A stretch of DNA of 41,999 nucleotides from an uncultured Candidatus Saccharibacteria bacterium. Lineage in GTDB: Bacteria; Patescibacteriota; Saccharimonadia; Saccharimonadales; Saccharimonadaceae. The stretch spans positions 1 through 41,999 of the forward strand of contig CANDYU010000008.1 of the NCBI GenBank assembly GCA_947425245.1, given 5' to 3'. Positions 1-35,257 of this stretch are shown piece after piece; within the stretch, counting starts at the first letter, position 1; every line of letters begins with the position of its first letter. The notes beneath the pieces were generated by a model. The model was not told the origin of the DNA. It searched no databases and saw only the letters and a list, made by a program, of their open reading frames with translations. The translations under genes and the position numbers were made by a program.

Positions 1-127
1 TTGTAACCTGTCAAACCAGCAGACCCATTGTTGTAAACGGGCGAAGCCGTAGTAGACCAATGGTAGCCATCGACGCCAAGATACCGGGCAGAGCCGTAGC
101 CTAGATAGACGTACCCGCTACGGACGA
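1..127 (-). repeat. Truncated hypervariable surface-domain cassette (copy A)
   Basis: Read on the minus strand, this encodes VRSGYVYLGYGS, then ARYLGVDGYHWSTTASPVYN and NGSAGLTGY before the window edge cuts it. It aligns codon for codon with cassettes at 18815-19029 and 33567-33781. Differences fall at a few positions, several of them AAT codons in the 33.6 kb copy that are TAT, GAT or CAT here. It begins at the shared boundary TCGTCCGTAGCGG (115-127 read in reverse). An open frame continues upstream on the minus strand to about 283 but has no ribosome binding site and does not look like protein. This is therefore either a silent cassette or the end of a broken surface-protein gene. The fold (C-type-lectin or FGE-like) is inferred from recall of similar Saccharibacteria proteins. 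Confidence 0.7.
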
Positions 128-800
128 GACGTGTGTTTTTAGTTCTTATTAAGTTCGGTTTTTGTTCGGGTATAGAGAATGACGAAAAGTTGTGGAAACT
201 GCTTTTTATCAAGGATTGGAGTTGTAGTAGTAAGTAACCCATATTTAGTAAAAAATATGAAAAAGAGGGGATTGCAATAAAAAACATAGGAGGTGGGTAT
301 AAAGTAGGCGGAGCGGTGTGGACTTTGATATAAATGAGAAAATATGGTGTGATTAGAGATTCCAACAGGTATAATGTCGCAAAAGGTATATTGTGCGACA
401 TTGGAAATATGTCGAAAAGACGAGTATACATACGTTTTGATTTGTTGCTTGTTTTTTATGCCCGGCCGATTGTTGTTGTTTTTTGTCTATACGAATTAGC
501 TATTTTATGACGGGTTGTTGATTATGCTTTATTGCCTGTTATGAAGGCCAGAGCTGGTTAGATATGAATAATGCTGATGCTTGGCACAGTTTTATGAAAT
601 ACGAGCCAATGATAACCAGATTAGATTTAAATTAATAGAGGGGAATTATGCAATGGGAACGAGGGGTGAGTGGGAAGCGAGTTCTGGGCGTAAGTGATTT
701 AGTAATTCCCTGTTTGGCGCTTCCCGGCTCAGCGGAGTATGTTTTAACATCGGTCAGCGAATGTTGGAGATTAGTAGATGCCGTGGACGCATCGTTGTGG
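128..800. other. Non-coding stretch between cassette A and fic
   Basis: I see no convincing gene. One short open frame on the plus strand (648-854) has an AGAGGGG-like site before its ATG but overlaps the end of fic, and its peptide looks like nothing I recognise. The stretch also holds the perfect inverted repeat listed at 374-401. The rest is probably decayed DNA next to the cassette. Confidence 0.4.
374..401. repeat. 8-bp perfect inverted repeat
   Basis: ATGTCGCA (374-381) and TGCGACAT (394-401) are exact inverted copies separated by 12 nt. They could be an operator or a small hairpin. No T-run follows on either strand, so a terminator is unlikely. Confidence 0.35.
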
Positions 801-18573: not shown

Positions 18574-18575
18574 TA

Positions 18576-18827
18576 TTAGGATATCCCACCAGAACTAGGA
18601 TTGGTATAAGTATACCAGTATGGATCGGGTTCTGCTGATGTGCTTATTGAGGAACTGAGTATTCGAAAACCATATGCTGATAACATATCTTTGTTGTCAT
18701 AGGTGGTGGGTGATGCTGTGGCTGGCCAGTACCACCCTTCGCTACCGTTTGACCAAGGGCTAGCACGGTTGATGGTTATGCGACCGCTACGGACGAGCTA
18801 CTATAGCTTTCACTTCGTCCGTAGCGG
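18576..18827 (-). repeat. Divergent hypervariable cassette (copy B)
   Basis: Read on the minus strand from the shared boundary TCGTCCGTAGCGG, it encodes VRSGRITINRASPWSNGSEG, then WYWPATASPTTYDNK and so on to IS and a stop at 18578. It is related to copy C by VRSG at the start, TASP in the middle and a similar overall length of about 70 codons, but is otherwise very different. No start codon or N-terminal part is attached. It is probably a silent cassette. Confidence 0.6.
18784..18827. repeat. 13-bp perfect inverted repeat at the joint of two cassettes
   Basis: CCGCTACGGACGA (18784-18796) and TCGTCCGTAGCGG (18815-18827) are exact inverted copies around 18 nt. Each is the first 13 nt of one cassette, so cassettes B and C point away from each other. 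It could be a recombination site or simply two cassette heads. Confidence 0.85.
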
Positions 18828-19029
18828 GTACGTCTATCGTAATTATGGTTCTGTCCGATCTCTTGGCATCAATGGCTACGGTTGGTCCCCTACGGCTTCT
18901 CCGGTTCACTACTCCGGGTCAGTCAAATTAACAGGCTACTACCTCGGCTTAGATGATAGTGGTGTCTACCCGTCGCTCGGCCCAGACTATCGCTGGCATG
19001 CTTTCCCCATCCGTTGTCTGGCGTACTAG
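18815..19029 (+). repeat. Hypervariable surface-domain cassette (copy C)
   Basis: From the boundary the frame encodes VRSGYVYRNYGSVRSLGING, then YGWSPTASPVHYSGSVKLTG, ending in FPIRCLAY and TAG. It matches copy D (33567-33781) in length and frame. Differences cluster at about a dozen codons, many of them AAC or AAT in copy D and something else here. Upstream the frame stays open to 18703 but only by reading the back of copy B, so no intact gene is present. The conserved FPIRCLAY end suggests a C-type-lectin or FGE-like fold, which is inferred. Confidence 0.7.
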
Positions 19030-33566: not shown

Positions 33567-33781
33567 TCGTCCGTAGCGAGTACGTCTATCGTAATTATGG
33601 TTCTGTCCGGAATCTTGGCATCAATGGCTACAATTGGTCCACTACGGCTTCGCCCGTTTACAACAATGGGTCTGCTGGTTTGACAGGTTACAACCTCAAT
33701 TTCAATGCTAGTGGCGTCAACCCGTCGGACGGCCCGCTCAATCGTTGGCTCGGTTTCCCCATCCGTTGTCTGGCGTACTAG
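33567..33781 (+). repeat. Asn-rich hypervariable cassette (copy D, template-like)
   Basis: From the boundary TCGTCCGTAGCG the frame encodes VRSEYVYRNYGSVRNLGING, then YNWSTTASPVYNNGSAGLTG, then YNLNFNASGVNPSDGPLNRW and ends FPIRCLAY with TAG. Asn, encoded by AAC or AAT, fills almost every position that varies in copies A and C. That is the appearance of a template repeat of a diversity-generating retroelement. No start codon, N-terminal part or reverse transcriptase is nearby. TATAAT occurs just upstream (33556-33561). Confidence 0.7.
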
Positions 33782-33910
33782 GTTAGAGTAAGAAACTAGC
33801 TTTCTATTCTTTGGTGAGAGTTTTAGAAAATACCCTTAATGCGGGGGCATAGTATAGTATTCAAGTCGTCATGATAATTCCCTCTTCTGGGGCTTTCTGA
33901 GTATGTTTTG
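33782..33910. other. Spacer after cassette D
   Basis: Nothing recognisable lies between the cassette stop and the end of the DUF3048 gene; no clear terminator. Confidence 0.3.
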
Positions 33911-35257
33911 TTATTCTAGAACGATGGTCTCGTATGAGACGCTACCGTATTGTGGTATGGCAGAAATCCAGGTTTGTCCGGGTGTAAGTTTTATGATATT
34001 GCCACTAGCATCGCGGAAAACAATTTGTTCTTCGGCAGAGGTTTTGGTCCAGCTCCCCTCGATTACTTTGCCGTTTTGGAAGATAGTGGCGGTACCAGAT
34101 CCGATGGTGCGAATGTTTTCATGGTAGTTATCAGCCATGAGACTTTCGCTAACAACCATGGCGATAATAACATTAGGAGCAACTGGTTCTGGGTTGCCGC
34201 AGCTGGTGACGGTGTTTGGATGATACAACTCGGAGGAACAACTGTAAGTTAAATGTTGGTTGCCGGTGGCAAAATAGCGGGTGTATTTGTTAGTTTTGGT
34301 ATCGTAGGTGTAATAGGTGTTAAAAAGTGGTGAGATGCCGAAATTAATTGATATATTGGAGATGATGGTAGATAAGCAGTTATTATCTTCGTTTGAGCAA
34401 TTATTTTGGCTAAAGTTTTGTGCGAGAACGGCCTGGACCTCGTCTGGCGTGAGATGTGGGAAGGTTTTTGGCGTGGAGCTAGTGTAATCTTGGTTCTGGT
34501 TAAAGCTAGCGAGATCGTTACTAGAGGTAAAGAGATTATTCCAGCCTCGGTTGGAGGTTTCGCGCCACATGTAAACAGGACTTTCGTTAAGGTCGCGATA
34601 GTTCCCTTGCCAAAGGGCGGTATTGGCTTCGTTGGAGCCTCCGGCGTGGGTGACAGTGCAGTCAAACGGTGTATCCCATTCAAGATAATATGGGCGTAAA
34701 GAACGAATTGGTCCAATGGCACTAGTGGTGGGATTTTGGAAGATTGCAGCAAAGCGAGTAATGCCGGCTTCGGCAATAGCTTCGAAGACAACTGCAGCTT
34801 GGTTAAGGCCAGCTTGAGGTCGGGCACCGTCTAGGCCATTTGGGATTTGAACGCAGAAAGTAGGAGAGTCGTTGAGTTTTGCGTCGGTAATTTCTTCGCC
34901 GGTAAGATTACTGTAGATTGGGTCGGGGAAATCCACACGATCGATGTTAGGAGTGTTGGTCGGTTGGCTAGACAGCCAGCCAAGAATCCAGAGAGCAATA
35001 ATAGTTCCAAAAAAGGCAAAAATAATAATAAGAAAAATAATAACCTTAAGGATAGTTTTTGGCTTGTGCGGCTTTTGGGTTTTTGGTTCTTTTTGAGAGT
35101 TGGATGTTTTATCGTTGGAGATATGAGCTGTTGGCTGGCTTGATAAATCGGTTGGTGGGTTTTGAGAGTGTGGTAGGTTAGTTGGCTGAGAAATGGTGGT
35201 AGTTACGGGTTTAGTGCTGGTTTTCTTGTTTGTTGGCTCAGATTTGCTCTCACCCAT
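33911..35257 (-). CDS. DUF3048 (YerB-like) membrane-anchored protein
   Basis: The 448-aa protein has a Pro/Thr/Ser/Gln-rich cytoplasmic part (1-66) and one span (about 69-92, VIIFLIIIFAFFGTIIALWI). The extracytoplasmic DUF3048 domain follows: PTFCVQIPNGLDGARPQAGL, VVFEAIAEAGITRFAAIFQN, IGPIRSLRPYYLEW and VTHAGGS. A C-terminal half contains SWTKTSAEEQIVFRDASG and ends SVSYETIVLE. In Firmicutes YerB-type proteins the function is unknown. It starts at 35257 with GGAG 9 nt upstream. It probably acts on the cell surface. Family call is good; role unknown. Confidence 0.85.
   Translation of the reverse strand: MGESKSEPTNKKTSTKPVTTTISQPTNLPHSQNPPTDLSSQPTAHISNDKTSNSQKEPKTQKPHKPKTILKVIIFLIIIFAFFGTIIALWILGWLSSQPTNTPNIDRVDFPDPIYSNLTGEEITDAKLNDSPTFCVQIPNGLDGARPQAGLNQAAVVFEAIAEAGITRFAAIFQNPTTSAIGPIRSLRPYYLEWDTPFDCTVTHAGGSNEANTALWQGNYRDLNESPVYMWRETSNRGWNNLFTSSNDLASFNQNQDYTSSTPKTFPHLTPDEVQAVLAQNFSQNNCSNEDNNCLSTIISNISINFGISPLFNTYYTYDTKTNKYTRYFATGNQHLTYSCSSELYHPNTVTSCGNPEPVAPNVIIAMVVSESLMADNYHENIRTIGSGTATIFQNGKVIEGSWTKTSAEEQIVFRDASGNIIKLTPGQTWISAIPQYGSVSYETIVLE

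Follow-up and report, generated by a model that had tools for sequence, protein, structure and literature searches.

Positions 33,567 to 33,781 of a 41,999-nt window, the whole stretch of DNA in question, hold a repeat rich in Asn codons, which raises the question of whether it is the template of a diversity-generating retroelement (DGR), one of the products of such an element, or neither. The window is contig C8, one of the 22 contigs of G000, a fragmented 882-kb MAG of an uncultured Ca. Saccharibacteria bacterium. A sequence-only reading had described the repeat (copy D) as template-like and as sharing one domain frame with two further repeats, copies A and C, the variable positions being nearly all Asn codons. 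The shared frame was borne out: all three copies carry the same 70 codons, VRSG...PIRCLAY*, beginning at DNA level with TTCGTCCGTAGCGG (FVRSG) and closing with ...FPIRCLAY*, and the variable positions are mostly derived from AAY codons. The template-like character of copy D did not hold, as described below.

Copy D and its relatives in the genome

Copy D (33567..33781, forward strand) is a silent variable repeat (VR) cassette of 70 codons and a TAG with no in-frame start codon. It is intergenic, with a tRNA-Glu gene on the reverse strand on one side and a reverse-strand gene (33911-35257) on the other. Its stop codon is followed by a conserved 3' end (33782..33800, forward strand), which reads GTTAGAGTAAGAA here and GTTAGATAAG in most copies. 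Copy C (18815..19029, forward strand) is an older silent cassette, changed from the template repeat identified below at 22/45 adenines and 27/160 other sites (p=4e-5). It stands head-to-head, across a 20-bp linker, with a decayed reverse-strand cassette (18575..18795) that kept its 5' end and lost its 3' end. Copy A (1..128, reverse strand) is a fresh cassette cut by the contig end, with changes at 10/30 adenines and 3/96 other sites (p=2.7e-5). The possibility that copy A is the end of its own 143-aa ORF was rejected, the upstream part of that ORF having no counterpart at any other cassette.

Searching the genome with copy D gave 64 DNA matches, and the 12-mer at the cassette 5' end, CGTCCGTAGCGG, was found in 84 exact copies where about 0.1 were expected and a control pattern gave 0, which rules out chance similarity or low complexity. 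The census, which covered the stretches around DNA matches and 5' motifs and may therefore miss diverged cassettes beyond these, gave about 90 cassettes (92 sites, 82 of them complete and open to the conserved stop). Complete cassettes encode 63-76 aa, most of them exactly 70, and are spread over 19 contigs as single copies, tandem arrays or head-to-head pairs, 17 in number. Contigs C5, C6, C7, C8, C9, C12, C15, C16 and C20 end in or near cassettes; it is therefore likely that the library makes the assembly break, and the number of cassettes in such MAGs is probably underestimated.

Nearly all cassettes are intergenic, and only one, on contig C20, ends a full surface-protein gene. With the template repeat excluded, 61/91 have no in-frame ATG, GTG or TTG upstream and have stops close upstream. 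For nearly all of them the idea that they are ends of ordinary genes was rejected on these grounds. Could each cassette instead be translated independently as a small protein, or become a gene end through a frameshift or leaderless start? The open, protein-constrained frames would suit this, but it is hardly credible given the start-less majority, the tRNA gene and hairpin that precede copy D, and the observation that, in the protein expressed from C20, a cassette by itself accounts for no more than the closing portion of a larger domain.

The two cassette ends are nearly invariant while the middle diverges. The cassette end CCCCATCCGTTGTCTGGCGTACTAGGTTAGA is 97-100% conserved (72 cassettes), and the first four codons are conserved even at synonymous sites. 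This invariance therefore indicates a constraint at the DNA level, as expected for recombination or homing. Five cassettes (C16:15771, C5:65107, C2:87091, C1:126570 and C1:74616) carry another 3' end, in which ...PIRCLAY* is replaced by ...PIRCPRS* followed by CGCTCCTGACGTCGCTGACAGAAGCTCGC and a long hairpin.

Reverse transcriptase, template repeat and adenine bias

The sequence-only reading had noted the lack of a reverse transcriptase (RT). This was correct for the window and not for the genome, in which a single RVT_1 (PF00078) match was found on contig C11. The 394-aa protein has the RT of the BPP-1 DGR as its best match among solved structures (8UB7, E=6e-23) and matches phrog_1423 (E=1e-70); its nearest named relatives are from uncultured Candidatus Saccharibacteria MAGs. 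An accessory ORF of 358 aa overlaps the RT start. The accessory protein gave no Pfam match; in the AlphaFold model of an orthologue (pLDDT 87) the C-terminal half is a four-helix domain like those of S23/IVP proteins and Avd. Superposition on Avd (4DWL) gave a TMt of 0.85, an rmsd of 2.0 and a Foldseek probability of 1.00, but a weak E value of 0.28, and the domain is thus predicted from the model to have the Avd fold. An Asn-rich repeat of 206 bp (L039 7704-7909, contig C11), located some 350 bp downstream of the RT, cannot continue as cassettes do and was taken as the template repeat (TR). The TR and the VRs share the final TCCGTTGTCTG and differ at site 199 and beyond position 210, a candidate IMH region.

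Alignment of most cassettes to the TR required no gaps. Among the 17 freshest cassettes, changes were found at 313/765 adenine sites (41%) and at 92/2720 other sites (3.4%), and a third of the 92 fall on sites 116 and 199, which are nearly fixed differences between TR and cassettes. Counted by template base across copies, the substitutions thus show a strong adenine bias and not an even spread. Together with the RT, the Avd-fold accessory protein and the TR in the same genome, this confirms the adenine-directed pattern suggested earlier for the three copies, and the presence of a DGR in G000 is essentially certain. Beyond the freshest copies, the cassettes have diverged from the TR to gradually increasing degrees. 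Isolated TR adenines (68, 82, 98, 123, 128 and 148) are seldom changed in cassettes (0-12%), a synonymous third-position one included, while adenines in the AAY codons of the TR are often changed; the contrast may reflect a context dependence of the RT.

Copy D differs from the TR at 9/45 adenines and 8/160 other sites (Fisher p=0.003). When each copy was tried in turn as the reference, the TR gave by far the highest ratio of A to non-A changes, 5.95, against 3.28 for copy D, and it contains 45 adenines against 38. Copy D was therefore rejected as a template, and it is a moderately fresh variable repeat. The non-A changes that the earlier reading had pointed out in the copies are real, and they are explained by drift and by the two sites at which almost every VR departs from the TR. 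In copy D they comprise those two sites, five C-to-T changes and one G-to-A change, the last two kinds being drift.

Copying of the cassettes and their probable role as an archive

The reading that we regard as probable is that copy D belongs to a genome-wide library of silent cassettes written by the DGR, from which one expressed adhesin is re-tooled by recombination. The main alternative is that the cassettes are functionless leftovers, produced by off-target retrohoming or transposition from an ordinary one-target DGR and now decaying. The absence of start codons and genes at the cassettes, their graded divergence from the TR and the clear decay of four of them (C2:72090, C3:78559, C4:624 and C8:18795) would fit leftovers. 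However, none of 66 full-length cassettes contains a stop, although about 35 would be expected to under random placement of an equal number of changes, and all length changes are in frame. In old, diverged cassettes non-A changes fall at codon positions 1, 2 and 3 in proportions of 32/21/57%, an excess at third positions for which selection acting on the TR lineage, and not on the individual cassettes, could be partly responsible. Both ends are also nearly invariant in copies that have diverged by 35% inside, and sister species show the same layout. Given these constraints, and the recent exact copying between loci described next, leftovers are an unlikely explanation.

Three pairs of cassettes are identical over 205 nt (C6:59639 and C9:2646, C4:55360 and C13:9794, C1:123114 and C9:34072), with unrelated flanks of about 25% identity. 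Mosaic tracts beyond those in all shuffles were found in 12/38 cassettes, and eight cassette pairs have common tracts longer than in any of 20 shuffles. In its 3' half copy D agrees with cassette C5:40970 at all of 48 variable sites, and in the 5' part the two differ, so that copy D is also a recombinant. Since the same random A changes in two cassettes are not given by partial retrohoming alone, copying between cassettes is required.

The exchange could alternatively be a shuffling of the shufflon or integron kind, with a tyrosine recombinase acting at the cassette 5' end and the GTTAGAT end. The sharp unit boundaries agree with this, as do the 17 head-to-head pairs, many with the palindromic linker AACCCGTATAGnCTATACGGGTT and some with hybrid forms, and three tyrosine recombinase matches in G000, one with an in-frame stop. 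Nevertheless, the identical pairs at unlinked sites indicate that cassettes are copied and not merely moved, and there is also exchange of cassette segments, an outcome that site-specific recombination does not produce. Most cassettes lack the linker, as does the expression gene, and none of the three recombinase matches is linked to cassettes. We consider such shuffling improbable. As to the linkers themselves, they measure 17-23 or 78-151 bp (e.g. C1:14461/14540, C4:536/624, C9:19412/19564 and C13:15189/15300); most of the long ones contain the first palindrome or a second, AACTAGTATAGSCTATACTAGTT, or hybrids of both, together with a motif of the TTAATTAA type. The palindrome resembles a site of recombination or of a mobile element.

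The single expression gene, on C20, has 543 codons of an exported FISUMP-like protein ahead of its cassette, and the cassette encodes just the end portion of a larger domain. That domain matches FISUMP (TIGR02145) with E=1e-6, below the cut-off. The cassette is cut short by the contig end; what is visible of it agrees with the TR at all non-A sites compared and matches no silent copy, and is therefore taken as a fresh DGR product. The protein has an N-terminal hydrophobic helix, and in the AlphaFold model only the N-terminal beta domain, pilin-like by weak matches, is confident. The model of the variable domain is unreliable, and no claim on its fold is therefore made. Cassette C9:2646 recurs on C6 behind 285 bp of the expression gene, this C6 copy being itself 5'-truncated. 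Among relatives, G024 has a complete homologue of the expression gene that ends in its own cassette; the homologues in G013 and G040 lie on contigs that break off at this point or ahead of it. Two paralogues of the expression protein in G000 (C1:46293-47552, reverse strand, and C10:13148-14578, forward strand) have a normal C-terminal end without a cassette.

In the library reading, the RT would copy TR RNA with errors at A, and the cDNA would home into cassettes, guided by the conserved sequence at the cassette 3' end. Cassettes would then be copied between the archive and the expression gene by recombination at the two invariant ends, either as gene conversion of the RecA type (RecA is present in G000) or by a site-specific recombinase. 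The 3' end of one exported adhesin, with its FISUMP/C-type-lectin-like domain, would in this way be re-tooled both by new mutation and by stored variants. We infer both the archive role of the cassettes and a role of the expression protein in surface recognition.

In Neisseria pilE/pilS and Borrelia vlsE, the silent copies are promoter-less and variants arise from recombination and slow mutation. The present system resembles these in its start-less variant copies with conserved ends, single expression gene and mosaic segments, but it differs in that an RT supplies new adenine-mutated variants and in that the copies are scattered over the chromosome. A working of the pilS/vls kind is supported by this anatomy of start-less copies, switching at the expression gene not being among the observations. 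Shufflons and integron cassettes share with it exchangeable 3' gene ends and sharp boundaries; here, however, cassettes are copied and mosaic, and excision, inversion, attC and sfx are not among the features seen. The likeness to DGRs of the BPP-1 type and of CPR bacteria, in which DGRs are already known (PMC8144416), comprises the DGR-type RT, the Avd-fold accessory protein, the TR beside the RT, adenine-directed changes from TR to VR and a VR located at the C terminus of an exported protein. Known DGRs usually have one to a few VRs, each in a whole gene, whereas here about 90 are found, almost all gene-less. Treponema denticola has 7 VRs (PMC4891356) and Thiohalocapsa PB-PSB1 has 15 target genes across nine DGR loci (PMC10907252); some DGRs have dozens to hundreds of VR copies, a worked example having 6 TRs and 91 TR-VR pairs with few A-to-N changes (PMC6642488). 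Our literature search, with Paul et al. 2017 on CPR DGRs lying outside it, gave no paper uniting DGRs and silent cassettes as one system, and no description of start-less cassettes on the scale and in the layout of these ~90.

If the library reading is true, it joins error-prone retrohoming, which writes variants, with silent-cassette conversion, which stores and recalls them, so that a mutation engine is coupled to a heritable archive. The setting is one of ultra-small, host-dependent bacteria with genomes below 1 Mb, in which about 20 kb would be devoted to one variable protein end. The long-standing question of the role of DGRs in CPR bacteria would become testable as host-surface recognition by one adhesin.

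Sister genomes and templates away from the RT

Of the relatives within the genus that were searched, about half have a relative of the RT, while large libraries occur in a few genomes only, with first-look candidate counts of 136 in G024, 81 in G013 and 80 in G040. The cassettes sampled in G024 and G040 are mostly of the same design, head-to-head pairs included, and have species-specific ends (VRSG...PVRCLVY and VRSG...PLRCLSTVLGM, respectively).

In G024 and G040 the templates are dispersed and lie away from the RT, a further difference from known DGRs. A tag, CGCGG..GGTGCCGATCTTT, follows each AAY-rich repeat, giving 5 such templates in G024, 12 in G040 and 1 in G000. The tagged repeats have 12 AAY codons per copy vs 6 in G024 and 10 vs 6 in G040. 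For each of four templates in G024 there is a separate cassette family with A bias, with 28-45% of A sites and 6-9% of non-A sites changed (p<1e-7 each).

A conserved structured RNA-like element (L039 8362-8530; L203 11901-12070; L089 17-183, reverse strand) is located some 1 kb downstream of the RT. In G000, G024, G040 and L201 it consists of a hairpin, then CTGCCTATTCC, then an antitag, GATCGGCACnCTCACCGCG, that is complementary to the TR tag. The hairpin, GGCAG..GGCTACGCC..CTGCC, has five pairs with changes on both sides. Tag and antitag are exactly complementary in the three species in which no TR was seen beside the RT (0/5000 shuffles per region); in G000 and L202, which have the TR beside the RT, there is one mismatch.

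In BPP-1, bRT-Avd is recruited by the spacer that adjoins the TR, and the cDNA is primed from an internal adenine at the 3' junction of the TR (PMC12875486). The dispersed templates would be explained by a split version of this arrangement that acts in trans. We advance, tentatively, a genome-wide split DGR in which one RT/Avd would serve many templates in trans, the tag pairing with the antitag RNA that would do the job of the BPP-1 spacer; its products would be archived in silent cassettes, from which gene conversion would bring them back into one adhesin. On this evidence a template RNA that works in trans is possible. Tagged templates at dispersed sites also suggest a way for a single RT to be supplied with many templates, which is relevant to directed evolution tools. 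The tag/antitag idea is weakened by a sixth tag in G024, GTGCCGATCTTT, which ends an exact 55-bp inverted copy of the element end (G024 C11:873-927, L177) and has no upstream TR. An RNA model of the element found it, among 100 relatives, only in G000, G024 and G040, at one place per genome, with G007 at E=0.06; L202 matches the model with E=0.01.
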